A stretch of DNA of 64,000 bases from contig NZ_BLPG01000001.1 of assembly GCF_011764445.1 (NCBI RefSeq), positions 3,038,001-3,102,000 on the forward strand. Reading direction: 5' to 3'. The position numbers and the translations under genes are program-made. The stretch's first letter is position 1; each line of letters opens with the position of its first letter. A model generated the notes under the pieces. The model saw only the letters and a list, made by a program, of their open reading frames with translations. It was not told where the DNA came from and searched no databases. This document shows, in pieces, positions 1 through 15,911 of this stretch. This stretch comes from Phytohabitans rumicis. Lineage in GTDB: Bacteria; Actinomycetota; Actinomycetes; Mycobacteriales; Micromonosporaceae.

Positions 1-899
1 CACCCGCTGTGCGACGTGCGCGGGCAGGTCCTCGTTGAGCTCGCGGACCTTGCCGAGCAGGTACGGCTCGTGGCCCCGCTGGCGGGCGCTGTCGATCAGC
101 AGGTAGGGGTCCTTGGACAGGCAGCCGCCGCCGACGTACCCCGGCTTGGCGATGTCCGGCCGCGGGTAGTCGAGGTTGGTCGCCCGGATCACCTCGAGCG
201 GGTCCAGGCCGAGCCGCTCGGTGAGCATGGCGATCTCGTTGCCGAACGAGTAGATCAGGTCGGTGTGGCAGTTGTTGGTGAGCTTGACCAGCTCGGCGAC
301 CTCCATGCTGGACACCGGCACCAGCTCGCGCGCCAACCCGCCGAAGAGGTCCAACCCCAGGCGCAGGCTCTCGTCATCGAGGCCGCCGACGACCTGCGGC
401 AGCTCGACCAGTTCGCGCAGTGCCTGGCCCTGGATGGTGCGTTCGGGCGCCATCACCAGGTGCGGCTCGACCCCCAGCGGTCCCGCAGCACCGGCAACAC
501 GATCGCCCGGCTGGTGCCGACCGGCACCGTGCTGCGCACCACGACGAGAACGTCGGGGTCGCAGCGCTCGGCGATGTATTCGGCCGCGGCGGCCAGATTC
601 TTCAGATTGGGCCGCCGAGTGGCCTCGTCCGTGGGCGTGGACACGCACACGATCGCGGCGTCGACCGGCTCGTCCGGCAGGTCCGGACCGACCAGGATGT
701 TGCGTCCGACGTGTTCGGCGAACACTTCCGCCACACCCGGCTCGTAGATGTGCGGTTGCCCCTTGGCCAGCGAGTCCAGCACGGCGGTTTGGGTGTCGAC
801 TCCGTACACGGTGAAGCCCTTGCGGGCCAGGGCCGCGGTCAGGGTGAGGCCGACATAGCCCATCCCGACCACGCCGATACGGTGAAATTCATGGGTCAT
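1..899 (-). CDS. NDP-sugar (UDP-HexNAc type) 6-dehydrogenase, frameshifted, 3' end outside window
   Basis: Probable NAD-dependent oxidation of C6 of a nucleotide sugar to the uronate, supplying cell-surface polysaccharide. The ATG at 899 gives MTHEFHRIGVVGMGYVGLTL, a Rossmann GxGYVG loop. Later segments are VCVSTPTD, STVPVGTS, APERTIQGQA, ELVKLTNNC and GYVGGGCLSKDP, which holds the catalytic cysteine. The TIQGQA/LPQVVGG stretch resembles WecC/WbpA-type UDP-HexNAc dehydrogenases more than UDP-glucose dehydrogenases; this is a family impression only. The frame breaks at a five-C run (471-475 on the plus strand): reading on without correction stops almost at once, while adding one base restores a continuous frame to base 1. 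It starts 11 bp after the upstream glycosidase stop, so it is probably co-transcribed. The C-terminal domain lies beyond the left edge. Confidence 0.85.
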
Positions 900-910
900 T
901 CTGGGCCTCC

Positions 911-1807
911 CTAGGGTTGTGGACAGGGCGGGTCGACCCGGTCCAGAGCGCGCGTGGTGACATAGCCGGTGAACCGCTCCTCGCGGTAGCGCCGGCACGC
1001 CTCCGCCACGTACGCGGGACGGGTTGCGTAGTCGACGGCGAGCACCACCTTGCCGGCGTCGCGCAGCCGCCGGGTGGCGGTCAGGTTCTCCGCGCAGAAG
1101 TCCTGGGTGCACGGCTCGTCGGTGGCCAGGAAGAACAGCTCCTCCATGCCGATGCCGTCGATCGCCGCGGTGTAGCCGGCGTGGTCCTGCAACTCCGGCG
1201 AGTTCTGCGGGAAGATCCAGAAGTCCGGCTGGGCCTGCTTGGCGTATCGGCTGATGCGGACAATCAGGTCGACCATCTTGGCGCCCAGGCTCTCCCGCGT
1301 CTCGCCCGGGACCAGCGCGAGGTCGATCTCCTCGTACGCCAGCGGCGTGTCCAGGTAGACGCCGTCGAAGCCGGCGGCCAGGGCCTGGTCGACCCGCGGC
1401 CGGACGACGCCGTCCCACCAGCGCTGCTCCCAGTACCGGACGAAGTGCTCCTCCGGCCAGTCCGCCCACCGGTTGAGCATGAGGCCGTCCGACCGCACGC
1501 GTGCCGCCTCGGGCCGGAAGTCCTCGATCGCACCGATCTCGAAGTAGGCCAGCACCCGCTTGCCCGCCCCCCGCACGTCGGCGATCTCCTCGCGGGTGAA
1601 GTATCCGGACCCGGCGTCCTTGGCGAGGTCGATGACGGCGAGGTTCTGCGGTGCGCGGGCGATCGCGTCCAGCCGGCCGTCCGCGTAGCCCTGTAGTTGG
1701 TACACCCAGCTGGTGACCTTGTCGTCGGCCGCCTGCCCGGGATCCGTACAGCCCGGCAGCAGACCCAACATCAGCAGGAGAACGCAGACGATCGGCATCC
1801 GTATCAC
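911..1807 (-). CDS. Endo alpha-1,4-polygalactosaminidase-like (GH114/TM1410-type) lipoprotein
   Basis: Predicted 298-aa exported lipoprotein. A short hydrophobic signal ends in the lipobox LLPGC near residue 21. The rest resembles the TM1410/GH114 TIM-barrel family: VYQLQGY, an early strand around AVIDLAKD, VLAYFEIGAIEDF, then FDGVYLDTPLAYEE with the acidic residues expected in the site, and WIFPQNSPEL. GH114 enzymes cut alpha-1,4-linked galactosamine polymers, and related proteins sit in Pel/galactosaminogalactan exopolysaccharide loci. The GTG at 1807 overlaps the TGA of the upstream GlmS-like gene (GTGA) and has an AGG eight bases upstream, so translation is probably coupled. An ATG at 1798 is an alternative start. 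The pairing with amino-sugar genes supports a role in trimming or releasing a polymer; substrate is inferred. Confidence 0.72.
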   Translation of the reverse strand: MIRMPIVCVLLLMLGLLPGCTDPGQAADDKVTSWVYQLQGYADGRLDAIARAPQNLAVIDLAKDAGSGYFTREEIADVRGAGKRVLAYFEIGAIEDFRPEAARVRSDGLMLNRWADWPEEHFVRYWEQRWWDGVVRPRVDQALAAGFDGVYLDTPLAYEEIDLALVPGETRESLGAKMVDLIVRISRYAKQAQPDFWIFPQNSPELQDHAGYTAAIDGIGMEELFFLATDEPCTQDFCAENLTATRRLRDAGKVVLAVDYATRPAYVAEACRRYREERFTGYVTTRALDRVDPPCPQP

Positions 1808-4800
1808 CCGATCATCCTCGCGATCTCGTCCACCGGCGACAGCAGGACGGTCTCGACGGGCAGATCGGCCAGCACCGACGGGTCGAAGGGCGCGTCGGTC
1901 TCCGTGACGGCGGCCCTGATCTCTTCCAGCCGGCCCCCGCCGAGGACCTCGGTGAGGTGTACGGCGTCGGCCCGCTCGCGCAACGCCACGTGCAGCAGGG
2001 TGAGCGCCTTGACCCGGGTGCCGGTCAGCTCGGGCACCATCAGCACCAAGCGCCCATCGCACCGGCCGCGCACCAGGCGGGGCGTTCGGGAACGTACCGC
2101 CAGCCGCTTGGATCCGCTCAGCTCGGCCCCGTTGTCCGCCCGGCTGACCAGCCCGCGCGCGATGCCCGTCTTGCCGGCGACGCGGATCGTCGCCGGGCCG
2201 TCGGGCGGCCAGCTCAGCAGGTAACGCGTGGCGCCCTCGACCCGATCGACCAGGTTGGCGAAGGCGCTCAGGGTACGCAGGGCGGAGTAGCCGCAGACCT
2301 CCGGATCGCCGCCGGCCTCGGCGAGGGCCGCCGTCAGCCCGTTGTCGAGCAGGTCGGCGTCGCCGCGCGAGGTGCCGACCGTCACCGTCTTCGCCTGGTG
2401 CTTCACCGAGTCGATGGAGCGGGTCAGCTCGTCCACGGCGGTGGTGAGCCGGTGCCGGAGGTACTCGACCGGGTCGCCGGCCGGGTTCCCGTGCTGCAGC
2501 ACCTGGGAGGCGTACGACAGGCCGATGGCCGTGTCGCTCTGTAGGACGCCGCGAAGCGTGCCCGCCGCCGCGTCGGCCACGAACTGATGCAGGTCGTGGC
2601 AGGCCAGGTCCAGGTCGCCGACGGTCACCCGGCCGGCATCGACCGCGCCCTCCAACGCGGCGAGCGCCACCCGCAACGGATCCGCTTTCCGGTCTATCGC
2701 GCGTGCGATGTGGTACGAGAACAGGTGCCCCGCCGCCGTACTGATGATCCAGGCGAACATCGGGTGTGCGGCGGGCACGTGTACGACCAGATCCGTCGCC
2801 CATCGCACGTCGATTCCCTCGTCCACGATCACCGCCGGCGCGTTGCGGTGCGCCGCGAAGATCTCCACCTCCTTGGTCAGGTCGCGCACCTGGCCGGCGG
2901 GCGTGCCGGCCGCGCAGACGAGGACGAACGACTCGGCCGACAGGTCGACGTGCTTCTTGTCCTCGACGGCGTCCGTGGAGATGGTCTTGTAGCACAGCTC
3001 CGACAGCTTGATCCGGGTCTCCTCGGCGGCGACCCGGTTCGGCCCGGACCCAACGACTGTCCAGTATGGATAGCGGATCGCGACCTCCGCGATCTCGGCG
3101 ATCCGCGGCGCCAGGTCGGGCAGCCGCTCCAGCTGCTGCGGGACGTCCAGCAGGGCCTGCAGCAAGGAATCCTCCAGGGCCGGCGGCAGCCGGTCGAGGA
3201 GCCGCGCGAGCCGCAGACCGAGCAGCACGCCCGTGGCGACCTGGGAATAGAACGCCTTGGTGGAGGCCACCGCCATCTCGACATCGCGTCCGTCCGATGT
3301 GTACAGCACGCCGTCGCTCTTGTGCGTCAGGTCGCTGTCGCGCCGGTTGACGATGGAGAGTACGGCCGCGCCACGGGCCCGAGCCATGTCCACGGCCCGG
3401 TTCGTGTCCGTGGTGGTCCCGGATTGGCTCACCGCGACCAGGCACACCGCCGACATGTCCGGCCGCAGGCCCCACGCGGACAGTTCACTTGCCGGCATGG
3501 CCGCGACCGACACGGCCGGTTTGAGCAGTCGCTTCACCACGGTCGCGATGCCCTGGCAGGCGACCGCCGCCGTGCCCTGGCCGACGAGGATGACCTCGCG
3601 GATGTCACCGGCGGTGAAGCGGCGGCGCACCGCCTCCGGCAGCGCCGGCTCGCTCAGCGTCACGTAGTGCCGGTCGCCGTCCCGGGCGACCCGCCCGCGC
3701 AGGCTCTTGCGGAACGACGAAGGAGCCTCGGTCATCTCCTTCACCAGGTAGTGCTCGAACGGGCCGCGTGCCACGTCCCGGGTGGTGATTTCCGCGGTGA
3801 CGATGTCGCCATCGGTCGTCGCCACGGGCCGGCCCAGCGCCGTATAGCGCCGCAGCGCCGCCGCCGTCCCCGCGCCCGCCCGGTCCAGTGTCACCACGGT
3901 GCCCAACTCGCCGCCGTCGGCGAGCGTGCCGTCCAGGCGCAGGTACCGGTCGGTCACGCCGACCAGCCCGTACACCTCGCTGGCGACCAGGAAGCAGCCC
4001 GGCGCGAACCCGACGTACAGGCCCTGCCCGCTCCCCTTCACCCCGAGCAGCAGTTGGTCCGGATTGGCGGCGGTCTGCGCGGCGATGGCGAACGAGCCGT
4101 ACCCGCGGCGGATGAACTCGGCCATGGCCGGCACCGGCTCCGCGCCCGCGTCGATGCTTCCGGCCAGCAGCACCGGGATCAGCTTCGCGTCGGTGCTGAT
4201 CCCGGCGGCGTCGGCGGGCAGGCCGATCTGTTGCCGCAGGGCCACGTGGTTGTCGATGTCGCCGTTGAGCGCCGCCGTGGCGAAGATGTGCGCCCGACCC
4301 CGCACCACGCTGTTGACCGGGTGGGCGTTGGCCTCGCTGATGCGACCCACGCTGGCCCAGCGGGTGTGCGCGAGCACGGTCACCCGGGCGCCGGGCAGCG
4401 CCAGCACCGCCCGCAGGTCCGTGTCGACGGCGATGGTGGCGCGCAGGAAGGCGACGTTTTCCCCGAGCCGGCCGATGACGGATGCCCGCTTGTAGACAAA
4501 CGCCAATCCACCATCGAGCGCCTCGACCGCGCCGTGCCGGTAGTCGGTGTCCGCGCGGTGACGCAGGTCCGGGGGTACGCCGTCGGGCAGCGTCACCCAG
4601 ATCTGGATGCCCGCCGAATCACGCCCCCGGACCTCGAGCCGGTCCACCGCGTCGAGGACCGCGTCGACCGCCAGGTAGGCACGGGCCACGTCCAGATCCG
4701 CGATCGCGTCGCCGGCCAGGGCACCCGCCCGAGCTGCGGCCGCCACCCGATCATGGGTCAGCGCCCAGAGCAGGTCACGGGCGCGCACCGCGAGCCGCTG

Positions 4801-5115
4801 CCCGCGTTCGAGAAGCTCCGGGTCCCAGTCCGCGCTGTGCCGGTCCAGGTCACGATCGAGCTCGGCCAGCCAGCCGCTCGCCGCGGACAGGCGTTCGACG
4901 GCTTCCTCCCGCAGCCGCGCGTCGGTCGCCAGGCGGTGGCTAACGGTCGGGAGGGCGTACAGCTCGGCCGCTGCCGACAGACCTTTGACAAACCAGTCCA
5001 GCCCGGCAAGCAGGTCGTCCGGCCGGTCCTTGGGCAAGGCGTCGAGCACCTGTCGGCGCGAGACGTCCGCACGCTCACCGCCGTAGTCCGGCACTGCCGC
5101 CACGATTCCGCACAT
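1804..5115 (-). CDS. Giant GlmS-like protein: glutaminase, two SIS domains and a C-terminal extension
   Basis: A 1103-aa relative of glutamine:fructose-6-phosphate amidotransferase; ordinary GlmS is about 610 aa. MCGIVAAV supplies the N-terminal nucleophile cysteine. Glutaminase motifs follow in order: VRGRDSAGIQ, HTRWASVGR, NAHPVNS, ALNGDIDN and STDAKLIP. The linker EHYLVKEMTEAP and a first SIS domain (VSQSGTTTDTNRAV, VASTKAF) are clear; a second SIS domain carries VVGSGPNRVAAEE and EDKKHVDLSAES in place of the usual ELKHGP. Two parts are not canonical: about 110 mainly helical residues inserted between the first strand and VRGRDSAGI, and roughly 250 C-terminal residues after the second SIS domain that I do not recognise. 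It sits 74 bp after a BTAD regulator and overlaps the next gene, so it probably makes or senses an amino sugar for this locus. Catalysis is plausible but unproven. Confidence 0.8.
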   Translation of the reverse strand: MCGIVAAVPDYGGERADVSRRQVLDALPKDRPDDLLAGLDWFVKGLSAAAELYALPTVSHRLATDARLREEAVERLSAASGWLAELDRDLDRHSADWDPELLERGQRLAVRARDLLWALTHDRVAAAARAGALAGDAIADLDVARAYLAVDAVLDAVDRLEVRGRDSAGIQIWVTLPDGVPPDLRHRADTDYRHGAVEALDGGLAFVYKRASVIGRLGENVAFLRATIAVDTDLRAVLALPGARVTVLAHTRWASVGRISEANAHPVNSVVRGRAHIFATAALNGDIDNHVALRQQIGLPADAAGISTDAKLIPVLLAGSIDAGAEPVPAMAEFIRRGYGSFAIAAQTAANPDQLLLGVKGSGQGLYVGFAPGCFLVASEVYGLVGVTDRYLRLDGTLADGGELGTVVTLDRAGAGTAAALRRYTALGRPVATTDGDIVTAEITTRDVARGPFEHYLVKEMTEAPSSFRKSLRGRVARDGDRHYVTLSEPALPEAVRRRFTAGDIREVILVGQGTAAVACQGIATVVKRLLKPAVSVAAMPASELSAWGLRPDMSAVCLVAVSQSGTTTDTNRAVDMARARGAAVLSIVNRRDSDLTHKSDGVLYTSDGRDVEMAVASTKAFYSQVATGVLLGLRLARLLDRLPPALEDSLLQALLDVPQQLERLPDLAPRIAEIAEVAIRYPYWTVVGSGPNRVAAEETRIKLSELCYKTISTDAVEDKKHVDLSAESFVLVCAAGTPAGQVRDLTKEVEIFAAHRNAPAVIVDEGIDVRWATDLVVHVPAAHPMFAWIISTAAGHLFSYHIARAIDRKADPLRVALAALEGAVDAGRVTVGDLDLACHDLHQFVADAAAGTLRGVLQSDTAIGLSYASQVLQHGNPAGDPVEYLRHRLTTAVDELTRSIDSVKHQAKTVTVGTSRGDADLLDNGLTAALAEAGGDPEVCGYSALRTLSAFANLVDRVEGATRYLLSWPPDGPATIRVAGKTGIARGLVSRADNGAELSGSKRLAVRSRTPRLVRGRCDGRLVLMVPELTGTRVKALTLLHVALRERADAVHLTEVLGGGRLEEIRAAVTETDAPFDPSVLADLPVETVLLSPVDEIARMIG

Positions 5116-5189
5116 GGCTGGGTCCCCTAGGTCGCTTCGGTACCCGTTCTGGCTAACATCCCCCGCGTGGCGCCCGCGTCACCCGCGCG

Positions 5190-5900
5190 TCACGCGAGGG
5201 ATTGCCGGATCGGGCTCATCAGGTCCAGGAACTGCCGGGTGGGCAGGATCCCGAACTCGTCGGCGAGCACCTGGCGGCAGCGCTCGAACTGCCGGATCGC
5301 CTCGCCCACGTTCCCCTCGGCCAGGTGCACCCGGGCCACCACCCGGTGAGCGCTCTCCCGCAAGGGGTCCATGCGGACCGCGGTGAGTCCGGCCTGCAGC
5401 GCCTCCAGGTACCGCCCCTCCTGGGCGTGCAGCGTGGCGAGCCGCTCCAGCGCGTGTAGTTGGACCTGATGCAGCCGCTCCCGGTGCAGCAGGACCCAGT
5501 CGTCGTACCAGCCCGGGAGCAGGTCGCCCGCGGACAGTACGGCCAGCGCGTTCGCCGGGGCGACACCGTCGTCCAGCACCGCGCGGGCATGGCTCAGGAT
5601 CTCGTCCATGTCGATGCGTACGCCCGGGTTGAGCATGAGCGCACCGTCCATGGCGTCGACCAGTTTCGGGTGTTGTTGCCTGATCCGCCACAGGGCCGAA
5701 CGCAGATTGCCCTGGGCATGGTGTTCGTTGCATTCGGGCCACAGCTGACCGGCCACGAGGCACCGGTCACGCCGGCCCTGAATGGCCAGGAGCGCGCTGA
5801 GCCGCTGGACCGCTCGCGTCGTGCCGACCGCTTCCCGGCCACGGCGCAGTTCCCACCGGTCGATGAGAACCATTGTCCAACCGGCCGTGCGCTCCCCCAT
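5190..5900 (-). CDS. SARP/BTAD-domain transcriptional regulator
   Basis: A 236-aa regulator. The N-terminal part contains a winged-helix region (RGREAVGTTRAVQRLSALLA, QLWPECNEHHAQGNLRSALWRIR) and the C-terminal two thirds is a BTAD-type helical repeat (YDDWVLLHRERLHQVQLHAL, YLEALQAGLTAVRMDPLRES, GEAIRQFERCRQVLADEFG). This domain order matches short SARP activators that switch on adjacent gene clusters. The start is ATG 5900; an internal ATG at MVLIDRWEL is possible. It reads toward the GlmS-like gene 74 bp away, so it is the likely local activator of the polysaccharide locus or forms an operon with it. The 214 bp in front of it carries a perfect palindrome and short direct repeats. Confidence 0.8.
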   Translation of the reverse strand: MGERTAGWTMVLIDRWELRRGREAVGTTRAVQRLSALLAIQGRRDRCLVAGQLWPECNEHHAQGNLRSALWRIRQQHPKLVDAMDGALMLNPGVRIDMDEILSHARAVLDDGVAPANALAVLSAGDLLPGWYDDWVLLHRERLHQVQLHALERLATLHAQEGRYLEALQAGLTAVRMDPLRESAHRVVARVHLAEGNVGEAIRQFERCRQVLADEFGILPTRQFLDLMSPIRQSLA

Positions 5901-6114
5901 GCTTCACCCATCGCGTCCCCCTGATTACGCGCGCTGGGATGCTCCGATAGCACAACAGACATCAGATCAGGCTTGTCCGGACTTGTCGGACAGTCAATCA
6001 ACCGAACGTTCCGCCGGATTGGTCGTCAGTGGCGAAGTGGATTGCACGGCTCATACCACTAACGCCTTATTGTCGGGTTCCCGACAGCTAACGCGCCGGT
6101 GACGCCGCGGAGAC
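5901..6114. promoter_or_regulatory. Upstream control region of the BTAD regulator with palindrome
   Basis: Non-coding 214 bp between the regulator start and hairpin element A. It holds a perfect 16-bp palindrome, TGTCGGGTTCCCGACA at 6071-6086, and a short direct repeat (CTTGTCCGGA then CTTGTCGGA) at about 5972-5990 spaced roughly one helical turn. SARP proteins bind direct heptamers at such spacing, so the latter could be an autoregulatory site; the palindrome would suit a dimeric repressor. No well-spaced -35/-10 pair could be fixed. Confidence 0.4.
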
Positions 6115-6169
6115 GTTAGGAAGGGCCCCCTCCTATGCATAAAACGTTAGGAGGGGGCCCTTCCTTGCA
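6115..6169. repeat. 55-bp hairpin element, copy A (terminator-like)
   Basis: First of four exactly 55-bp copies (see 26002, 47074 and 61298). GGAAGGGCCCCCTCCTA pairs perfectly over 17 bp with TAGGAGGGGGCCCTTCC around a short A/T-rich loop, flanked by GTTA and TTGCA. It begins one base after the TGA of the GH5 gene (6171-6173, minus strand), so it probably ends the mannan operon transcript. Confidence 0.75.
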
Positions 6170-6170
6170 C

Positions 6171-8113
6171 TCACTCGGCGCGGATGTTGTCGATGTCGAA
6201 CTCGCCGGGGTGGGCCCACACGTAGACCTCGCGCACGTCGGCCAGCGCCGCCGCGTCGCAGGACATCTGGGTCAGCAGGTCGGCCGTGACGGTGACCTGG
6301 CTGTTCTGCGGCACCCAGGTGAAGTTCGACTGGCACCAGGAGGGGACGTCGCCGTACTGCACGGCGATCGCGCCGCTGGTGCCGGCGTCCGGGCCGACGC
6401 GCAGGTCGAACTTCAGGGCCACCTTGGCGGTGAGGTCGAGCGGCGCGTCCAGCCGCTTGCCGAACCACCCGCCGTCGGCCGCGGAGATGTGCAGGCCGTA
6501 CGCGCCCTCGGTGTGGAAGTCGGCGGTCTGCGCGACCGTCCCGGCGTTGGTCTGCCACGGCGCGGGCGCCCAGCCCTCGGTGCCGGTCTCGAACGTCGCG
6601 ATCTGGATCGTCGGCGTCGCCGGCGGCAGCACCGTCACGCTCAGGGTGGCCGTGTTCGATACGCGCCCGGCGAGGTCACGGATGGTGTATTGGGTCGCCG
6701 CCCGGCCCCGGAACCCGGCCGTGGGCGTGAAGACCACCTTGCCGTCGCTCGTCAGCGCGAACTGCCCACCCTCGACCGACGAAGGGTTTAGCCTGATTGA
6801 CGACGGGCGCACCGACGTGCGGTACGCGATGTCGTTCGCGGCCGGCGCCAGCGTCACCGGCGTCTCGAACGCCGTGACCACCGCGTCGTCGTCGGCCACC
6901 GGCGGCCGGGACCGCTGCCCCGGCGGATCTCCTCGGTGGCATTGGACAGGTTGATGCACACCGGGCTCGGGCAGTAGACGGTGTATCCGTCGTAGTCCGG
7001 GTACAGGCTGCCGTCGTCCTGCACGCCGGAAAGGATCCAGTAGAGGAAGCCCGTGCCGCCGGTGGCGATGAACGCGTCCGTCCACTTTTGATAGACGGGG
7101 TTGCGGTCCGCCTTGTCCGGCCAGCCGAATTCACCGAGCATCACCGGCTTGCCGATCTTGGCGGCCTCCCGGTTGTGCCGCTTGATCCAGTCGACGGCCC
7201 AGACCGCGTCCTTGCCCCACGGCTTCGGGTACAGGTGGTACGACATGACGTCCACCGCCGGCAGCTTGGTGAACGCGAGGACGTCCACGCCCTCGCCGCA
7301 GTTGACGGTCCAGTCCGAACTGGTCCGGTCGTCGCAGAAGAAGCCCTCGTCGCCGACGCTGGCCAGGTGCTTGCGGTCGACGGACTTGATGTGCCGGGTC
7401 ATCTCGTCGGCCCACGCCGTGAGCAGTTGCGGCGAGCAGTTCGGCGACGTCGGGTAGAGCCCGGAGCCCTTGCACCGCGGCTCGTTGCCCAGCTCCCACG
7501 TCATGACGGCCGGATCGTCCTTGTACTTGACCCCGGTCAGCGAGTTGGTGCGGTTCAGGACGTGCGAGATCCAGTCCTTGTACCAGCCGCGGATCACCGG
7601 GTCGGAGTAGAAGTCGTCGTGGTACTGACCGCCGCGCCAGCGCACGTACTGGGCGATGCCGCCGAAGTCGTTCCAGTTGTTGGTGAGCGGAATGACCAGC
7701 TTGACGCCGGCGTCGCCGGCGGCCTTGATGACGTAGTCGAGGCGTTCCAGGCCGTCGGCCCCGTCGTTGTACGCCGGCCGGGTGCCGTCCCAGTACTGGA
7801 AGTAGACGCCGTCCGCCTTGCCGTGGATGGAGCCGGAGCCGTCCTGGTTGCCGATGTCGAGGAAGCCCCACGTGCGCAGCACGGTGAAGCCGGCCGACTT
7901 CGCGTCGGCGAACACGTCGTCGACCATCAGCCGCGACTTGTACATCAGGTAGTAGTTGTTGGTGCCGCCGAAGCGGAACTTCTTGCCGTCGAGCTTCAGC
8001 GTGGCCCCGTCGCGGACGACGAAGCCCGAAGTGGACGGTCCAGCGACGGCGGGGGTAGCCGGAGTGAGGAGGAGAAGTGCGGTGACGGCGGTGAGGAGGG
8101 AGCGCACTTTCAT
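6171..8113 (-). CDS. Secreted GH5 beta-mannanase with Ig-like and carbohydrate-binding-like C-terminal domains (frameshifted)
   Basis: Probable extracellular endo-1,4-beta-mannanase, about 647 aa when the frame is repaired. A Sec signal ends near PAVAG (residue 25). The GH5 TIM barrel spans about 30-390: TWELGNEPRC gives the acid/base Glu and VMLGEFGWPDK the nucleophile Glu. After a break at a CCCC run (6918-6921) the other frame continues with VADDDAVVTAFETPV, an Ig-like tandem-95-type module, then a beta-sandwich starting IATFETGTEGWAP and ending FDIDNIRAE, which looks like a carbohydrate-binding module. Length is 3n+2, as expected if one base is missing. The ATG overlaps the ROK gene stop (ATGA) with AGGAG seven bases ahead, so it is the last gene of the operon. 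Exact GH5 subfamily is uncertain. Confidence 0.82.
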
Positions 8114-9029
8114 GGGGTACTCCTAAGAGCGAGAGCCGCGGCGCCTAGCAGACCCGCGTCCGTCCCGAACCGGCTCGGGTGGATCCGCACCCGCCGGATG
8201 AAGGCAAGGCCGGCCAGGTCGGCGACCGCCTCGCGGAGCGGGGTGAAGAGCAGGTCGCCGGCGCCGGCTACGCCGCCGCCGACGACCACGTCGTCGAGGT
8301 CCAGCAGGCCGCTCGCGCAGACGATCCCGGCGGCCACCGCGGTCGCGGCCCGCCGGAACGCCTGCCGCGCGACGGGATCGCCGTCGCGCGCGTCCTGGGC
8401 GAGGGTGCGGGCGTCGGCCGGCCGGCCGGCGGCAGGCTCCCAGCCCTCGGCCCGCGCCCATCTGGTCATCGAGGGCCGCTGGCGATGGCCTCGACGCACC
8501 CGCGCCCGCCGCAGGGGCACGGCGGGCCGTCGAGGTCGACGACGATGTGTCCAATGTGGCCGGCGTTGCCGGTGACGCCGGGATGGATCCGGCCGTCCAG
8601 CACGAGGCCGCCACCGACGCCGGTGGAGACCACCATGCCGAGCATGGCCCGGGTGGTGTATCCGCCGCGCCAGTACTCGCCGAGCGCCATGCACTGCCCG
8701 TCGCCGGCGAGCACCGCGGGCCGGCCGGGCAGCACCGGCCGCAGCGCGTCGAGGATCGGAAACGGCCGCCAGTCCGTGATGTTGACCGGGCTGACCGTGC
8801 CGGCGTTCAGGTCGAGCGGGCCGGCGGAGCCGACCCCGAGCCCGACCAGCCGGCCGGCCGGGCCTTTCGCGGCCACCTCGCGGGCCAGCCGGTCGAGCGC
8901 GGCCGCCGCCTTCTGGCCGTCCGCCGGGGTGGGCACGGTGACCCGGTCCCGGAGCGTGCCGTCCGGCTCCACGACGGCCGCCGCGAGCTTCGTGCCGCCG
9001 ACGTCGACGGCCAGTACCGGCCCGGTCAT
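8110..9029 (-). CDS. ROK-family sugar kinase (frameshifted)
   Basis: Probable cytoplasmic kinase, about 306 aa. The ATG at 9029 opens with MTGPVLAVDVGGTKLAAAVV, the ROK phosphate motif. GLGVGSAGPLD, GDGQCMALGEYW and VVSTGVGGGLVLDG follow, then GNAGHIGHIVVD and the zinc-type CPCGGRGCVEA signature. The frame breaks just after that motif at a GGG run (8473-8475); adding one base joins SGPSMTRWARAEGWEP to DLDDVVVGGGVAGAGD and the normal C-terminus. Length is 3n+2. It lies between the beta-mannosidase and the mannanase, so mannose or a mannose derivative is the likely substrate. Longer starts up to 9140 would run into the 3' end of the GH2 gene and are less likely. Its TGA overlaps the GH5 start. 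Confidence 0.82.
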
Positions 9030-9102
9030 GCTGAGCCGTCTTTCGTTCCCGACTGCGGGGCTCGCAGGCGGGCCGCCGTCGTCTGTTCCAGGCCGTTGAA
9101 GC

Positions 9103-11540
9103 TCACTCCTCGCGCTCACAGGAAGAGACGTCGTTGACAAAGCGCAGCACGGGCCTCGCGGTCAGGGCCGCCGGGTCCAGGTCCGGCCGGGCCCGGACGG
9201 TGAACGTCACCGACTCCCCCGGCAGCAGCGTGACCAGCTGCTCGTCGACCGAGGCGGACGGGTCCAACCGGTCCGGGAAGAGCGCCAGGTCGCGCAGGAT
9301 GGTGCCGGCGCGTACGGTGACCCGCCAACCGTCCGGCACCGGCTCCGCGGTGGCGTCGTACGCCGGGGGCGGGTACGCGACGTCCTTGTCCTCGGCGAAG
9401 AACCACCAGGCCCGCTCGCCGTTGGCGGAGGCCACCAGCAGCTCGTCGCGCGGGTCGTCGGCGCTGGCCAGGTCGCCGGGCAGCGGCAGCGTGAGCGCCG
9501 AGTGGGGCGGTACGACGAGGTCCACCGCCGTCTTCGCGCGCGCCTCACCGGAAATGGCCATCCGGGTCACGCTGGCCGGGGCGATCCACGGCTGGGCGCC
9601 GTCGTTGACCGCGACCAGCACCAGAGCACCGTCCCGCGGCTGGATGGTCAGCAGCCGGTCGGCGTACACCCGGCGCAGGGCGTACCAGGCGGGCTTGCGG
9701 CGCCCGTCGCCATCGACGAACGCCCACGAGGTGACCGGCCAGCAGTCGTTGAGCTGCCACACGATCGCACCCATGCACAGTGGACGCAGCGACCGGAAGT
9801 GCTCGATCCCGAGCGCGATCGCCCGCGCCTGGTTGACCTGGGTCAGGTAGTGCCAGTCGTCGAAGTCGCGCGGCGGCGGCAGGTGCGCGTCGAGTCCACG
9901 CTGGAGCTTTGCGTCGCCGTCGATGGCCTTCTGGTGGTGGCGCATGCCGGGCGAGTCGTGCGCCAGCGGGTCGTCGCGCAGCGCCCGGCGCAGCGTCGCG
10001 TACGCCGCGGGCGCCTGGTAGCCGAACTCCGCGACGAAGCGCGGCCGGTAGTCGCGGTAGTGCACGTAGTCGCGCTGGTTCCACACGTCCCAGATGTGCA
10101 TGCTGCCGTGCGCCGGGTCGTTGGGGTGCACGTCCGGCCGCCCCGAGTACGGGCTGCTGGGCCAGTACGGCCGGGTGGGGTCCAGCTCGGCCACGATGGC
10201 GGGCAGGACATCGAGGTAGTACCCCTCGCCCCAGGTGCGTCCGGCCAACTCGTCCGGCCAGCCCCAGTCGTGGTAGCCCCAGATGTTCTCGTTGCTGCCG
10301 ATCCATCCGACCAGGCTCGGGTGGCTGGCCAGCCGCGTCACCTGTGCACGGGCCTCCGAAGAAACCTCGCCGGCGATCGGCTCCTCCTCCGGGTACGCCG
10401 CGCAGGCGAAGAGGAAGTCCTGCACCACGAGCAGCCCCATCTCGTCGGCCACGTCGTAGAAGTCGTCGGACTCGTAGCGGCCGCCGCCCCAGACGCGCAG
10501 CAGGTTCACGTTGGCGTCGTACGCCTGGGCGAGCCGCTCGGCGTAGCGCTCCCGGGTCACCCGGGTGACGAACGTGTCGTCCGGGATCCAGTTGACGCCG
10601 CGGACGAACACCGGCTGGTCGTTGACGACCAGGGTGAACGGGGTGCCGTCGGCGTCCGGGGTGGTGTCCAGGCGTACCGAGCGGAACCCGATGCGCCGCT
10701 GCCACGTGTCGAGGGTGGCGTCGCCGGCCGCGCGCAGGGTCACGTCGAGGACGTGGCGCGCCTGCTCGCCGTACCCCCGCGGCCACCACAGCGCGGGGTC
10801 GCGGACCTCGAGGTTGACGACGGCCGCGCGCTCGCCGGCCGGGACCGTGACCTCCCGGCGGACCCCGGCCACGGCGGCGCTCAGGGTGAGCGGCTCGTCG
10901 CCGACCCGTTCGAGGTCGACGTGTACGGCGACCCGGCCGACTCTATTGTCGACAGTCACCAGTGGACGGACGCCGGCGAGCCGGGCGACGCCCCAGGCGT
11001 GCAGCCCGATCGGCTGCCAGATGCCGGCGGTGACCCCGTTGGGTCCCCAGTCCCACCCGAAGTTGCACGCCATCTTGCGGATGAAGTTGAACGGATCCTC
11101 GTACGCGCTGGGACGCGCGCCCAGGCGATCCCTCAAGGCGGACGCGTACGCGTACGCCGAGTCGAAGCGGACGCTGAGCCGGTTGTCGCCGGGGCGCAGG
11201 TGTGGCAGGGCGTCCAAGCGGTAGCCGCGGTGCATGTTGGCGGTGGAGCCGAGGTCGACGCCGTTGAGAGTGACCGTGGCTACCGTGTCCAGGCCCGCGC
11301 AGACGAGGTCGACGCGTGCCTCGTCGAGGGGGACCAGGCGAACGTCGTCTCGTAGACCCAGTCGGTGTGACCGATCCAGCGCAGCGCGTCTTCGTTGTCG
11401 TCCAGGTACGGGTCGGGTATGCGCCCGGCGGCCAGCAGATCGGTGTGGACGCAGCCGGGCACGGCCGCCGGCACCGGGCTGAGCGACGCGTCAGCCGGTG
11501 CCACCGTCCAACCGTCGTGCAGCGGTCGGTACGAACCCAT
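9103..11540 (-). CDS. GH2 beta-mannosidase (frameshifted)
   Basis: Probable intracellular exo-beta-mannosidase of about 812 aa cleaving mannose from imported manno-oligosaccharides; no signal peptide is visible. Starting at ATG 11540, the first 75 residues (HDGWTV, VPGCVHTDLLAAGRIPDP, WVYETTF) match GH2 mannosidase N-termini. The frame breaks at a five-G run (11328-11332); one added base gives LDEARVDLVCAGLDTVATV and leads into NMHRGYRLDALPHL. The catalytic acid/base lies in WIGSNENIWG and the nucleophile in FVAEFGYQAP. Length is 3n+2. The AAGGGG upstream of the start is a reasonable ribosome binding site, and the gene starts seven bases after the second permease stop. Confidence 0.87.
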
Positions 11541-11547
11541 ATTCGTG

Positions 11548-12438
11548 TTACCCCTTAATTCCGGACAGCGCGATGCCCCTGGTGAAGTGCTTCTGGAAGA
11601 GCAGGAAGAAAATGACGGTCGGCAGCGAGGTGAGCAGCGACGCGGCCATGATGACGGCCATGTTCTGCGGGTTGAACGCCAGCGAGGCGTTCATCCGGGA
11701 TAGCGCCACCGGGAGGTTGGCCATGGTGTCGTCCTGCACGATGACGAGCGGCCAGAGGAAGTTGTTCCACTCGCCGAGTACCACGAAAATCGCCATCGCG
11801 GCGAGCGCCGGCCGCATCAGCGGCATCACCACGCGCCACCAGATCCGCCATTCGCCCGCGCCGTCCACGCGCGCGGCCTGGATGAGCTCGTTAGGGATCG
11901 ACCGCATGTACTGCACCAGGAAGAACACCACGAACGCCTTGGCGAGCGCCGGGATGATGTACGCCTGGTACGTGTTGAGCCAGCCGAGGTTGCGCACGAT
12001 GAGGTAGTTGGGGATCAGGCTGACCTGCCAGGGCACCATCATCGACGCCACGATGACGACGAAGATGACCCGCCGGCCGGGCAGGTCCATCTTGGTCAGT
12101 GCGTACGCGGCCAGCGACGCGAGCAGCAGCGACAGCACCGTGATGGTCGTGGCGACGAGGAGGCTGTTGAACATGAACCGCCAGAAGCCGCCCGGCACGT
12201 CCACGAACCGCTGGAAGAGGCCGGGTACGACCTGGTCGTGCCGCACGTCCGGGTCGTAGACCGAGTCGTAGAACGCGTCCACCGTCGGGTCGCGCGGCAC
12301 GAAGTCGGGCGGGTTCTTGGTCAGCTCCGGCACCGGCTTGAACGCCGCCGTGAGCATCCAGTAGAAGGGCACCAGCATGGTGAGGCCGAAGACGTAGAGC
12401 GGCAGCCTGGCTATCGTGGGCCAGAGGTTTCGGCGCAT
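11548..12438 (-). CDS. Carbohydrate ABC transporter permease (MalG type)
   Basis: A 296-aa inner-membrane permease with about six membrane segments (LYVFGLTMLVPFYWML near the start, TVLSLLLASLAAYAL, VIFVVIVASMMVPWQVSLI). The cytoplasmic coupling loop ELIQAARVDGAGEWRIWWRV carries the EAA-G signature that docks on the ATPase. It continues to the terminal VIFFLLFQKHFTRGIALSGIKG typical of MalG-like proteins. The ATG at 12438 shares its A with the TGA of the first permease (TGATG). Together with the neighbouring permease and the solute-binding lipoprotein it forms a CUT1 sugar importer, here inferred to carry manno-oligosaccharides. No cognate ATPase gene is present; such importers often share an MsiK-type ATPase encoded elsewhere. 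Confidence 0.92.
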   Translation of the reverse strand: MRRNLWPTIARLPLYVFGLTMLVPFYWMLTAAFKPVPELTKNPPDFVPRDPTVDAFYDSVYDPDVRHDQVVPGLFQRFVDVPGGFWRFMFNSLLVATTITVLSLLLASLAAYALTKMDLPGRRVIFVVIVASMMVPWQVSLIPNYLIVRNLGWLNTYQAYIIPALAKAFVVFFLVQYMRSIPNELIQAARVDGAGEWRIWWRVVMPLMRPALAAMAIFVVLGEWNNFLWPLVIVQDDTMANLPVALSRMNASLAFNPQNMAVIMAASLLTSLPTVIFFLLFQKHFTRGIALSGIKG

Positions 12439-13426
12439 CACAGCTCCTTCAGCGCCCGGGTGACCCGGATCTGGATCATGCTCACCACGAAGATGATGAT
12501 GAAGAGCGTCCAGGCGATGGCCGAGGCGTAGCCGAGCTGGAACTTCGTGAAGCCCATGTCGTACAGGTACGGGACGAGCATGAGCCCGCTGTCCTGCACG
12601 CCGCCCACGCTGCTGACCGCCCGGAAGATGATGTAGATCGCCTCGAAGAGCTGGAACGCCGAGATCAGGCCGGTGATCACCACGTACGTGGTGACCGGCT
12701 TGAGCTGCGGCAGCGTGATGTACCAGAACTGCTGCCAGCCGTTCGCCCCGTCGAGCCTGGCCGACTCGTAGTGCTCCTCCGGGATCGCGTTGATGCCGGC
12801 GACGAAGATGACCATGCCGTACCCGCATCCGCCCCAGACCGCCATCAGCACCAGGATCGGGATGGTCCAGCCGGGCGAGGCGAGCCACTGGACGCGTTCT
12901 ATGCCGAACCAGCCGATGACCGTGTTCGCGAGGCCGAACTCCTCGACCGAGAAGATCCACCGCCAGATCAACGCGACCGCGATCGTCGAGGTGACGGCCG
13001 GCAGGAAGAACAGCGTCCGCATGATCCGGTCGCGCCAGCTCGTGCCGCGGAACGCCACCGCGAGCACCAGCGACAGCACGGTGGTGAGCGTGACCGCCGC
13101 GACGACGTAGATGAACGAGTTGGCGATCGCCTTGCGGAAGCGCTCGTCCTCGAACCAGAGGCGCTGGAAGTTGTCCAGTCCCACCCACTGCGGCGGCTTC
13201 ACCCCGTTGTAGTTGGTGAACGCGAACCACAGCGAGTTCAGCAGCGGCCACACCAGGAACACGATGAAGAGCACCGCGAACGGCACCAGCATCGCGTACC
13301 CCGGCATGGCTCGGCGCAGTCGGGCCCGGCGCAGCTCGCGGGAGCGCGTGCGGCGTACCCCATCAAGATCTTGGCCCCCGCGGCCGGCGCACCTGGCGCC
13401 GGCGCGGTGGTGGTCGGTGTGGCCAT
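12438..13426 (-). CDS. Carbohydrate ABC transporter permease (MalF type, frameshifted near N-terminus)
   Basis: The partner permease, about 329 aa after correction. The main frame begins at MPGYAMLVPFAVLFIVF and shows six membrane segments plus the coupling loop AIPEEHYESARLDGANGWQQ. The likely true start is ATG 13426 (MATPTTTAPAPGAPAAG), only four bases after the upstream stop. That frame ends unnaturally, but one extra base at the five-C run 13375-13379 joins it through a basic stretch (DGVRRTRSRELRRARLRRA) directly to MPGYAML, as expected for a cytoplasmic N-terminus. Total length is 3n+2. An independent start at MPGYAML (13307) is the fallback. It is the second gene of the mannan operon. 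Confidence 0.88.
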
Positions 13427-13430
13427 CGAT

Positions 13431-14689
13431 CTACTTCAGGTTGTTGTTCATGATCGTCGCGGCTTCGGAGAGCGCCTTCTTGGGATCGACGCCGTCGTTG
13501 ACGACCGACTGGAGCTTCTTGGTGACGTCCGCCCCGCTGAGCTCCCAGCCCTTGCAGTTGGGCGGGCCGGTGACCGTCTCCATCGTGGTCTTCAGCGCCG
13601 CCTTGACGTCGTCGGTCGTGTTGAGGCTGTCGACCAGCTCCGGCCGCGGCGAGAGGTACAGCGCGCCCTCCTTGTTGAAGACCTCGGTCTGGAGCTTCTT
13701 GATCGCGTCATCCGAATAGAGCCACTTGATGAAGTCGACGGCGGCCTTGGGGTACTTGGTGTACGACATCACGCCGACGATCCGGCCGCCCACGAACGTG
13801 CCCGCACCCGCCGGGCCGGACGGCAGCGGCGCGACCTTCCACTTGCCCTTGATCTCGGGGTGCCCGCTGTCGAGGCCGCTGACCACCCAGGAGCCGTCGA
13901 TCGCCATCCCGTACTCGCCCTTGGCGAGGCCGGCGCCGGCGTCGGTGGCGGCCTTGGGCACGCCGTACTTGGTGTACTGCCGGGCCCAGTTCGTGGTGGC
14001 CAGCACCGCTTGGTCGCTGTCGATCGTGGCCTTGGAGCAGTCGTCGGCGTAGAGCGAGCCGCCCGCCTGCTTGAGCCAGTTGAACCAGGGCAGCCACTCG
14101 AAGGTGCCGAAGTTCTCGACCATCGGGGTCTTGATGCCGGCCGCCTTCAGCTTGTCAAGCGCGGTGAACAGCTCATCCCAGGTCTTCGGTGGCCCGCTGA
14201 TCCCGGCCTTCGCGAGCAGGTCGGGCCGGTAGTAGAGGAGGTAGAAGGCGTTGTCCATGGAGACGCCGTACACCGAGCCGTCCGGCGACGTGATCGCCTT
14301 CATCACCTCGGGGCGGGTCTTGGACTTGACGTCGGCGATGTCGCGGTCGTTGAGGTCGAGCATGCCGCCGAGCTCGCCGAACTCGATGCCCCACGACATG
14401 CCGCCGGAGATGATGTCCGGCCCACTCTTCGAGGTGGCCGCGGTCAGCACCTTGGCGTGCCCGTCGTCCCAGGAGATCGCCTGGACCTTGATCGTCGTAT
14501 CCGGGTGGGACTGCTTGTACAGGTCGGCCGCCGCCTGGAACGCCTGCGCGTTCTCGTCGGCGCCGACGCTCCAGAAGGTAAGGGTGGCTGGCCCTCGGCT
14601 TCCTGGGCCGGCTCCTCGCTGCCACCACTTGTGGTGCAGCCCGCTATCAGCAGGGACACGGCCGCCACAGCCGCAAGTCTGGTACGCAT
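13431..14689 (-). CDS. Extracellular sugar-binding lipoprotein of the ABC importer (frameshifted)
   Basis: Substrate-binding component, about 419 aa, first gene of the mannan operon. ATG 14689 has an excellent GGAGG five bases upstream and opens a lipoprotein signal, MRTRLAAVAAVSLLIAGCTT, with lipobox LIAGC. After a low-complexity SGGSEEPAQEAEG segment the frame breaks at about 14589-14596; one added base leads into ATLTFWSVGADENAQAFQAA and the rest of an extracellular solute-binding family 1 fold (IISGGMSWGIEFGELGG, YRPDLLAKAGISGPPKTWDEL, GEYGMAIDGSWVVSGL). Length is 3n+2. Its position next to mannan-degrading enzymes makes manno-oligosaccharides the inferred ligand. Confidence 0.88.
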
Positions 14690-14719
14690 GTGTGCCTCCG
14701 GCCATCGAAAAGTGTTGAC

Positions 14720-14731
14720 TGAACCGGTTGA
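14720..14731. promoter_or_regulatory. Candidate LacI-family operator
   Basis: TGAACCGGTTGA contains the perfect 8-bp palindrome AACCGGTT (14722-14729) with the central CG step typical of LacI/GalR operators. It lies where the transcript of the mannan operon should begin, just downstream of the -10 box, so a bound dimer would block initiation. The divergent LacI-type gene is the obvious candidate protein. Confidence 0.6.
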
Positions 14732-14739
14732 GTAGGCAC

Positions 14740-14768
14740 ACCGTACGGCCGGTCATTGCGACTGTCAA
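14740..14768 (-). promoter_or_regulatory. Promoter of the mannan utilisation operon
   Basis: On the minus strand TTGACA (14768-14763) is followed after exactly 17 bases by TACGGT (14745-14740), a good sigma-70 (HrdB-type) promoter. The first gene starts about 50 bases downstream, with the AACCGGTT operator between. Confidence 0.65.
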
Positions 14769-14891
14769 TGGCGTGTTAAAGGCTTGGCCAGGCCGTAACC
14801 TGAGGCTTAACCGAGCAAGCGTTCAGCAGCGCTACGCTCCGCAGTAACGAGCGGGGTACGGTAAGGCCCCTCCTGGAGATAAGGAGCGCAC

Positions 14892-15911
14892 GTGAAGCGG
14901 CCCACGATCGCGGACATCGCGCGCCGCGCCGGCGTGTCCAAGGGCGCCGTCTCGTACGCCCTCAATGGTCAGCCCGGCGTATCCGAGGCCACCCGCCAGC
15001 GCATCATCGCCATCGCCCAGGAGATCGGCTTCAACCCCAACAGCGCCGCCCGCGCCCTGTCCGGCTCGACCGCCAACGCCGTCGGCCTCGCGCTGTGCCG
15101 GCCCGCCCGCATCCTCGGCATCGAGCCGTTCTTCATGGAGCTCATCAGCGGCGTGGAGGCCGAGCTGTCCGCCCGCTCGTACGCGCTGACGCTGCAGGTC
15201 GTCGCCGACCCGGACGCCGAGATCGCGGTCTACCGGCGCTGGTGGGGCGAGCGCCGGGTCGACGGCGTGTTCGTGTGCGACCTGCGGATCGACGACCGCC
15301 GCGTGCCCGTCCTGGAGGAGCTGCAGCTACCCGCCGTCGTCATCGGCGGCCCCGACCACACCGGCACGCTCGCCTGCGTGTGGGCCGACGACACCGCCGC
15401 GCTGGTGGAGACCATCGAATACCTCGTCGCGCTCGGCCACCGCCGGGTCGCCCGGGTCGGTGGCCTACCCGACCTGCTGCACACCGAGATCCGCACCCGG
15501 GCCTTCACCGAAGCCTGCCGGCGGCTCGGCCTCACCGACTCGGTCACCGTCTCGTCCGACTACACCGGCGAGGAGGGCGCCCGAGCCACCCGCCGCCTGC
15601 TCAGCTCCGCCAACCGGCCCACCGCGATCATGTACGACAACGACGTCATGGCCATCGCCGGCCTGGCCGTCGCCCAGGAGATGGGCCTGGCCGTGCCGAA
15701 CGACCTGTCCATCGTCGCGTGGGACGACTCGGCGCTCTGCCAGCTCACCCACCCGCCGCTCACCGCGCTCGGCCGCGACATCCCGGCGTACGGCGGGCAC
15801 GCTGCCCGCCAGCTCCTCGCCGCCATCGAGGGCCGGGCGATCGGCGCGTACCAGCATGAGACGGCACACCTCACACCTCGCGGCAGTACGGCGGCGCCCC
15901 GTTTAGGATGA
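14892..15911 (+). CDS. LacI/GalR-family repressor of the mannan operon
   Basis: A 339-aa DNA-binding repressor. The GTG at 14892 is preceded by AAGGAG at ideal distance. Residues 1-60 are a LacI helix-turn-helix and hinge (TIADIARRAGVSKGAVSYAL, NPNSAARALSG); the rest is a periplasmic-binding-protein-like sensor with RVDGVFVCD, LGHRRVARVGG, RPTAIMYDNDVMAIAG, LSIVAWDDS and LTHPPLTALGRD. It is divergent from the sugar-binding protein gene, so the 200-bp gap holds control sites for both. By family analogy, a manno-oligosaccharide effector would release it from AACCGGTT. Confidence 0.9.
   Translation: MKRPTIADIARRAGVSKGAVSYALNGQPGVSEATRQRIIAIAQEIGFNPNSAARALSGSTANAVGLALCRPARILGIEPFFMELISGVEAELSARSYALTLQVVADPDAEIAVYRRWWGERRVDGVFVCDLRIDDRRVPVLEELQLPAVVIGGPDHTGTLACVWADDTAALVETIEYLVALGHRRVARVGGLPDLLHTEIRTRAFTEACRRLGLTDSVTVSSDYTGEEGARATRRLLSSANRPTAIMYDNDVMAIAGLAVAQEMGLAVPNDLSIVAWDDSALCQLTHPPLTALGRDIPAYGGHAARQLLAAIEGRAIGAYQHETAHLTPRGSTAAPRLG

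Follow-up and report, generated by a model that had tools for sequence, protein, structure and literature searches.

A giant GlmS-like protein beside a predicted exopolysaccharide locus of the Pel/galactosaminogalactan type in Phytohabitans rumicis

The stretch of DNA analysed here, which we call the window, covers 64,000 nucleotides of the 10.7-Mb genome of Phytohabitans rumicis (G000:C1:3038001-3102000). At its left edge lie four genes on the minus strand, one of which encodes an unusually large relative of the glucosamine-6-phosphate synthase GlmS, hereafter GlmSx. These genes belong to a 12-gene locus that continues past the window edge. Its left half is given in the coordinates of stretch L009 (genome positions 3023001-3041000), where the window position equals the L009 position minus 15000. 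The window holds the following genes of the locus:

5190-5900, minus strand: SARP-like/BTAD regulator of 236 amino acids (Pfam BTAD)
1804-5115, minus strand: giant GlmS-like protein (GlmSx) of 1103 amino acids, ATG start codon, MCGI at the protein start (Pfam SIS and GATase_6)
911-1807, minus strand: GH191/GH114-type endo-galactosaminidase-like lipoprotein, GTG start codon (Pfam Glyco_hydro_114, PF03537)
1-899, minus strand: uridine diphosphate (UDP)-sugar 6-dehydrogenase by Pfam, ATG at 899, extending leftward to L009:14593, 407 bases past the window edge

A preliminary description, made from the sequence of the window, noted how tightly these genes are packed, and the open reading frames bear this out. 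The regulator and GlmSx genes are 74 bp apart (5116-5189), the GlmSx and lipoprotein genes share a 4-bp GTGA overlap, and 11 bp (900-910) separate the lipoprotein gene from the dehydrogenase gene. Pfam supports all four gene types. The regulator matches BTAD at 63.8 bits (cut-off 22.1; E 3e-17), and the Pfam scan at E<=1e-3 gave neither a Trans_reg_C match nor any other DNA-binding domain profile. Two NCBIfam families, GlmS and MJ1477/TM1410, match proteins of the window, both below cut-off. The GTG start of the lipoprotein gene overlaps the GlmSx stop codon, with a further in-frame ATG at 1798, and a lipobox (LLPGC) can be picked out by eye. The encoded protein matches Glyco_hydro_114 at 1.5e-33; its top PDB match is 9ep5 (E=2.4e-80, 273 bits), and TM1410 scores about 94 bits. 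The entry 9ep5 is Env-GH191 (Table 1 of PMC12054363), an enzyme active on Pel according to the accessible part of that paper. Similarity to the founding members, together with an Asp/Glu pair (D151 and E220) that is invariant in 14 of 14 aligned proteins, allows the lipoprotein to be assigned to GH191 at the sequence level.

The preliminary description went on to propose an amino-sugar exopolysaccharide locus of the Pel or galactosaminogalactan kind, and pointed to the sequence on the left as the place where a polysaccharide synthase, a deacetylase and an exporter should be sought. That sequence supports the proposal, since it encodes a predicted PelF-type synthase, an Agd3-like deacetylase and an exporter candidate with a MOP fold. 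With such candidates beside the four genes, the flanks cannot be called unrelated to glycan export. The left half of the locus reads as follows:

L009:4899-6005, plus strand: GalE (NCBIfam 281.6 bits, cut-off 262.3)
L009:6016-8232, plus strand: Agd3-like deacetylase (Pfam Agd3_CE and CBM87)
L009:8261-9841, plus strand: PelF-type glycosyltransferase, DUF3492 plus GT4 (NCBIfam NF038011)
L009:9838-11241, plus strand: TM12, a multi-spanning membrane protein (MOP fold of the model)
L009:11263-11997, plus strand: NTP, a nucleotidyltransferase
L009:11994-12743, plus strand: Epi3, a second SDR protein
L009:12924-13619, minus strand: TIM2, a GH166-like protein of 231 amino acids (profile match to the PelA hydrolase)
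L009:13631-14596, minus strand: Epi2, an extended SDR protein

The glycosyltransferase scores 151 bits against the PelF model NF038011 (cut-off 100) and falls within that family. The deacetylase matches Agd3_CE and CBM87 at 54.5 and 49.1 bits (cut-off 27.6), and its sole PDB relative at E<=0.001 is Agd3 itself (6nwz; 6.6e-15 with the single sequence, 1.1e-26 with a profile). When the motif definitions CM1-CM4 given in the accessible part of PMC7229062 are applied, the CM1 DD, the CM2 HxxxH and the CM4 histidine prove to be kept (D348, D349, H440, H444 and H619 in 15 of 15 proteins). TIM2 of the window genome has no Pfam match, and 3 of 13 members match GH114 weakly. The TIM2 profile finds the PelA hydrolase 5tcb at 1.2e-21, and D105 and E158, aligned to the catalytic Asp/Glu pair of PelA, are invariant in 13 of 13 members (the alignment leaves out the copy in L164), which makes the protein GH166-like by sequence. 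No signal peptide was seen in TIM2 members when their N-termini were judged by eye.

The assignment of TM12 relies on its predicted fold. Among 15 members scanned there is no common Pfam family, no NCBIfam match was obtained, and no useful sequence relative was found in the PDB. The TM12 model, with a mean predicted local distance difference test score (pLDDT) of 85.1, matches MATE transporters, WzxE and MurJ (E from 2.1e-4, TM about 0.5), all of the MOP superfamily, which also includes PelG (PMC13254593, accessible part). On the basis of the MOP fold, TM12 is a candidate for an exporter that might work like PelG.

The locus has clear borders. Past GalE lies a gene whose protein start resembles that of ilvD. 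Past the SARP gene lies an apparent glycoside (perhaps mannan) utilization cluster (window 6171-15911), which includes a GH5 protein with a mannanase-like binding domain, ROK and GH2 proteins, part of an ABC transporter, a solute-binding protein and a LacI regulator. A promoter and terminator scan of window positions 5000-6300 called none. A conspicuous imperfect inverted repeat (AACGTTAGGA / GGGCCC-rich) is present at 6110-6170, between the GH5-type and SARP genes, where the terminator scan was silent.

Conservation of the locus was examined in 150 genomes of the window's own family, Micromonosporaceae, with 14 control genomes. Agd3_CE matches at E<=0.001 occur in 25 of the 150 (22 above cut-off) and in 0 of the 14 controls; GH114 occurs in 120 and 2, respectively. 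Of the 25 genomes with Agd3, 21 carry a GH114 gene no more than 20 kb from it; in the other four the two genes are on separate contigs (three genomes) or 23 kb apart (one). We compared the locus proteins with 18 selected stretches drawn from 15 of the 23 other Agd3 genomes. A nine-gene core (Agd3-PelF-TM12-NTP-Epi3-GH191-DH-Epi2-TIM2, where DH is the dehydrogenase) is complete in 12 of them, ten with all genes on a single strand and two in opposed halves as in the window. The order GH191-DH-Epi2-TIM2 likewise recurs in 12 of the 18, which goes beyond a chance arrangement. The remaining six are L169, which is cut by the stretch end, L170, which is its left flank and gave no matches, the distant variants L171 and L176, and L167 and L168, each with a lone Agd3-like gene. 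These last two are extra copies (57-60% identity) in a genome, G177, that also carries a full cluster.

Neither GlmSx nor the SARP was matched in any of the 18 stretches. All four window genes and the left half recur in order in one other genome, that of Micromonospora sp. CPCC 205371 (G172, scored as the same genus), where the SARP neighbour is 88% identical, GlmSx 81% and GalE 80%. Among the compared loci, GalE sits beside the cluster in the window, in G172 and in the distant variant L176 (37%). Of the expectation that the four genes would be conserved together, what holds is the wide conservation of the GH191-dehydrogenase pair; as a unit, the four are confined, among the loci compared, to the window genome and G172. 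In the family sample as a whole, 7 of 150 genomes encode GlmSx at E<=1e-60. Of the five without the locus arrangement, three have no Agd3 match and two carry Agd3 on another contig. Judging from the loci compared, the SARP would be a lineage-specific addition to the core, which GlmSx likewise joins in the window genome and G172 only.

It might be argued that these two genes are chance neighbours that stand outside the polysaccharide system, as their absence from the 18 stretches and the different neighbours of GlmSx elsewhere would suggest. We regard this as unlikely given the GTGA overlap that couples GlmSx to the hydrolase gene, and given that the arrangement is retained in a second genome whose GlmSx has diverged to 81% identity.

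GlmSx itself differs in architecture from canonical GlmS. An N-terminal Cys amidotransferase with an insert of about 125 amino acids is followed by two SIS domains, an insert of about 85 amino acids, a displaced catalytic C-tail (residues 902-914) and an additional C-terminal domain of about 190 amino acids. When the window genome's own canonical GlmS (622 residues) is aligned, its C-terminus falls on residues 902-914 of GlmSx, and the catalytic tail is therefore internal, with about 190 residues after it. A profile alignment that stops near residue 812 had raised the possibility that the catalytic C-tail lysine was lost, which we reject because the tail is displaced rather than missing. Among the best 80 GlmSx loci, 43 were inspected, of which 42 have an M/VCGI start; L064, in which no such start was found, was dropped. 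Our alignment of 43 proteins contains 40 of these 42 (L062 and L068 were omitted) together with the copies of the window, L042 and L046. All 15 active-site positions checked are invariant in 43 of 43 (Cys2, R-W-H-N-G-D, SQS..T, K703, E706, H722 and the tail lysine K909), their roles in the glutamine and isomerase sites being ones that we presume from E. coli GlmS. With the N-terminal Cys, both sets of site residues and the C-tail Lys in place, the sequence is that expected of a protein working like GlmS.

The predicted structure agrees with this view. The GlmSx model has a mean pLDDT of 85.7, with two stretches below 50 (254-260 and 903-919, the second being the tail), and matches E. coli GlmS (TMt 0.74). 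Against the GlmS equivalog TIGR01135, the window protein scores 206 bits and giant copies generally about 130-254 bits, where 418 are needed, such that GlmSx lies outside the equivalog. In the added C-terminal domain, no Pfam family is common to the 19 members scanned, which show scattered single matches (the best, in one member, at 6.6e-05). The first 50 Foldseek rows for GlmSx are all GlmS or GFAT and give no identity for this domain, and a viral library returned viral GlmS-like and other amidotransferase-like proteins on top.

The preliminary description had called this GlmS unusual, and so it is, although it is not peculiar to the locus. A scan of genome contigs found relatives encoded in at least 535 stretches, which rules out a rare protein tied to the window locus. 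Among the best 80, the titles are those of Actinomycetota in 73 cases (for the most part Acidimicrobiia), of Planctomycetota in 6 and of Acidobacteriota in 1. In 19 giant-bearing genomes we looked for canonical GlmS as well: four have it above cut-off, one (Micromonospora sp. C95, G259) has a piece of it at a contig end (L178), and in 14 none was found.

We also counted both forms in the Acidimicrobiia, the class of Ilumatobacter nonamiensis, for which we sampled 149 genomes at a requested completeness of at least 85%. Canonical GlmS above cut-off is present in 80 and the giant in 65; none has both and four have neither. The 65 giants comprise 64 recognized by a giant-specific C-terminal module and G407, with a truncated match; that of G413 is partial, at a contig end. 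The zero overlap was counted over related genomes, and we attach no probability to it. A search of the 65 giant-bearing genomes at E<=1e-8 found canonical GlmS above cut-off in none. The isomerase half of GlmS was reached only by the giants and by one match to positions 55-308 (G362), which sits in a 576-residue frame resembling a piece of that genome's giant. All further matches were confined to profile positions 1-227, the amidotransferase part, which is common to PurF- and AsnB-type enzymes. By comparison, canonical GlmS is present in 14 of 14 control genomes and, above cut-off, in 145 of 150 genomes of the window's family. Within that family, two of the seven genomes of the genus Dactylosporangium (g90) have the giant without canonical GlmS and the other five have canonical GlmS without the giant. 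The two carriers are D. siamense and D. aurantiacum (G161 and G194), a swap within one genus. The remaining five of the seven giant-bearing family genomes keep both forms.

The gene neighbourhood of GlmSx was compared as well. Of the 65 loci with 2 kb or more of upstream sequence, 48 have a glmM-like gene whose end lies no more than 1.5 kb from GlmSx; of the 72 with 0.8 kb or more of downstream sequence, 49 have acpS within 1.5 kb. Among sampled loci, four show PGM_PMM and ACPS by Pfam and two show YjeF/Carb_kinase, and at L134 the neighbourhood lies downstream of genes for ribosomal protein S11 and a pseudouridine synthase. This arrangement corresponds to the housekeeping glmM-glmS location of actinobacteria. 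Individual loci hold other features: in Ilumatobacter nonamiensis, a 1153-residue minus-strand open reading frame (L116:3722-7183) stands between the glmM-like gene and GlmSx; in M. mirobrigensis, a gene for a 350-residue SIS-domain protein (L063:13451-14503), perhaps a deaminase or isomerase partner, is convergent with and adjoins GlmSx; and in Micromonospora sp. C95 (L061), GlmSx adjoins a ketosynthase gene, an NAD-dependent reductase-like gene and a class III aminotransferase gene. The copy in L094, from a metagenome-assembled genome (MAG) titled Bifidobacterium breve, adjoins glmM and acpS and groups with Acidimicrobiia, and the title is probably wrong.

When the GlmSx tree is rooted at its midpoint, Micromonosporaceae copies and one from a Micrococcales MAG (a row that carries a long-branch warning) fall on one side, and the copies of Acidimicrobiia, Planctomycetota and Acidobacteriota on the other. 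The separate Micromonosporaceae branch might be taken to mean that these proteins make another amino sugar phosphate, such as galactosamine-6-phosphate directly, instead of glucosamine-6-phosphate. SIS folds also serve galactosamine-6-phosphate enzymes, and most giant-bearing family genomes (5 of 7) retain canonical GlmS, with Micromonospora sp. C95 retaining at least a piece. However, none of the 15 GlmS active-site positions is altered in any aligned GlmSx, and the two Dactylosporangium genomes, whose GlmSx belongs to the same branch, have no canonical GlmS that we could find. A different product therefore seems quite improbable to us.

We thus favour, with reasonable though not high confidence, the view that GlmSx represents a second class of glucosamine-6-phosphate synthase, with an internal C-tail and an extra, perhaps regulatory, domain. 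In many Acidimicrobiia it would have taken over from canonical GlmS, often at the same location; the few genomes checked elsewhere suggest the same for some Planctomycetota, one Acidobacteriota and two Dactylosporangium. One genus of Micromonosporaceae would have recruited a copy into a Pel/galactosaminogalactan-type locus as a dedicated precursor enzyme under a SARP-like activator. In short, GlmSx is probably a replacement glucosamine-6-phosphate synthase that, in the window locus, is dedicated to a polysaccharide.

For the locus as a whole, we consider it likely that the window genes form the right half of a 12-gene system for a partly de-N-acetylated, alpha-linked galactosamine exopolysaccharide of the Pel/galactosaminogalactan type. 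A deacetylase, PelF, an exporter fold and two galactosaminidase-group hydrolase families in a single locus support this proposal. More generally, our arguments build on direct observations, namely gene content and order, conservation, active-site residues, predicted folds and the exchange of canonical for giant GlmS in other lineages. GlmSx would make extra glucosamine-6-phosphate from fructose-6-phosphate and glutamine, which housekeeping GlmM/GlmU and the local GalE would convert to UDP-N-acetylgalactosamine (UDP-GalNAc). The cytosolic PelF-type enzyme would polymerize this precursor, and TM12 would export the chain. Outside the cell, the secreted Agd3-like enzyme would strip acetyl groups to render the chain cationic and adhesive, and the GH191 lipoprotein would cut or trim deacetylated stretches. 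TIM2 may clear chains inside the cell, and the SARP-like protein may act as the local activator.

The dehydrogenase, Epi2, NTP and Epi3 might provide another activated sugar, perhaps a uronic acid or a sugar made from it, in which case the polymer probably contains more than galactosamine. The dehydrogenase, judged from its L160 copy, is closest to 4r16 (whose annotation is UDP-ManNAcA dehydrogenase) and to CalS8 and Cap5O. Epi2 is nearest to UDP-glucuronate decarboxylases, and NTP to an unnamed nucleotidyltransferase and to mannose-1-phosphate guanylyltransferases. These relatives point to no single sugar, and it is at this second sugar that the model is least secure.

Several observations weigh against one or other of these proposals. 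Where Agd3 has its CM3 arginine (R613), which coordinates the base, the aligned column holds D, A or C (Arg in 0 of 15), and the conserved CM4 Met is replaced by Thr in 15 of 15 proteins. CM3 is kept in most, though not all, bacterial Agd3 homologues (PMC7229062). Given the missing arginine, we label the deacetylase Agd3-like, or CE18-related, rather than a proven CE18 member. TM12 cannot be identified as PelG by sequence family, there being no sequence match, and no PelD or PelE was recognized among the 12 locus genes in general Pfam and NCBIfam scans, no genome-wide search having been made. Canonical GlmS is encoded twice, above cut-off, in the window genome, which hence does not need GlmSx for bulk glucosamine-6-phosphate. 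GlmSx adjoins the core in two genomes only and lies elsewhere in 5 of the 7 giant-bearing family genomes. The glmM/acpS neighbourhood is found at 0 of 7 loci L060-L066 (Micromonosporaceae, Actinocrinis and the Micrococcales MAG) and at 0 of 6 Planctomycetota loci. The catalytic activities, the polymer and its regulation are all inferred. Finally, the dehydrogenase is broken in this assembly.

This last point deserves some attention, as it could mean that the locus is decaying in the window strain. The frame is broken near window position 480, where one open reading frame stops at 453 and another runs leftward from about 648; the two pieces match UDPG_MGDP_dh_N and UDPG_MGDP_dh. The dehydrogenase is a single frame in 13 of 13 relatives examined, and the break is thus either an assembly error or recent. 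The nearby GH5-type gene (6854-8113 with 6171-7085) and ROK gene (8466-9140 with 8110-8694) likewise appear to be split across overlapping frames, which suggests indel errors in the assembly, and the other locus genes are open. A real mutation in a decaying locus consequently looks doubtful at best. We consider it still less probable that the locus serves to break down a galactosamine polymer of foreign origin (fungal galactosaminogalactan or Pel), as food or in competition, with its sugar-nucleotide genes serving another pathway: its two galactosaminidase-group hydrolase families and the glycoside utilization cluster next door would fit, but PelF above its curated cut-off, the MOP-fold protein and biosynthetic nucleoside diphosphate (NDP)-sugar genes stand in the same conserved order, no importer was recognized inside the core, and the GH166-like protein has no visible signal peptide.

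If our assignment of GlmSx is true, the practical consequences are considerable. GlmS supplies the bacterial cell wall with its first amino sugar, and it has been investigated as a drug target. If a giant form replaces it across much of Acidimicrobiia, those genomes would have to be read differently, since NCBIfam models claim no giant GlmS above cut-off, with the result that giant-bearing genomes look as if glmS were missing. It would also offer a new architecture to study. The predicted polysaccharide locus, for its part, carries the Pel/galactosaminogalactan theme into filamentous actinomycetes in the form of a well-conserved cluster, pairs two galactosaminidase-type hydrolases with an extra NDP-sugar branch, and provides gene targets for the question of whether these organisms build cationic matrices.

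How much of this is new is best judged against known systems. In 30 of the 35 bacterial species of a published tree, agd3 is part of an operon with predicted carbohydrate-active enzymes or lies close to one. Every operon identified there encodes a cytosolic glycosyltransferase together with a multi-spanning membrane protein, and GH114 is a highly consistent member; these operons, including some actinobacterial ones with Spherulin-4, have been reported as putative exopolysaccharide operons (PMC7229062). The nine-gene core is therefore of a known kind, and the preliminary description's term 'undescribed system' is too strong for it. The two share an Agd3-like CE18 deacetylase, a cytosolic glycosyltransferase, a multi-spanning membrane protein, a GH114-family gene and an occurrence in Actinobacteria. 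Genes for a giant GlmS, a SARP, a dehydrogenase or a GH166-like protein are not mentioned in the accessible text of that report, and Spherulin-4, found in some of its actinobacterial operons, has no Pfam match among the locus genes scanned. In our searches of the open-access literature we found no description of a giant GlmS, or of a GlmS or SARP in such a locus. Novelty rests less on the four-gene set than on the giant GlmS.

Gram-positive pel operons, actinobacterial ones included, have also been described (PMC7112168 and PMC7112194, accessible parts). As far as the available portions of PMC7112168 and PMC13254593 describe it, the pelDEADAFG operon of B. cereus shares with the window locus PelF, a MOP-type exporter, an extracellular deacetylase, GalE and a PelA-hydrolase-like gene nearby. 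It differs in that the window locus has a deacetylase of the Agd3 (CE18) kind, adds GH191 and the NDP-sugar branch, and has no recognized PelD or PelE. The imp/wps/gsf sporangium-matrix clusters of Actinoplanes were considered as a counterpart and rejected as different cluster kinds, going by the accessible parts of PMC13390465 and PMC12691653.

The fungal galactosaminogalactan cluster (Agd3, Ega3, Sph3, Uge3 and Gtb3) has in common with the window locus an Agd3-type deacetylase with CBM87, a GH114-fold hydrolase and a 4-epimerase. In contrast to that cluster, the window locus has a PelF-type GT4 enzyme and a separate exporter candidate, and its hydrolases are bacterial GH191 and GH166-like proteins. 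Canonical GlmS (TIGR01135) and GlmSx, in turn, are alike in active-site residues, domain order and fold. Within this shared plan, GlmSx has 1103 residues compared with the 622 of the canonical enzyme of the same genome, and is set apart by its two inserts, internal C-tail and extra C-terminal domain.

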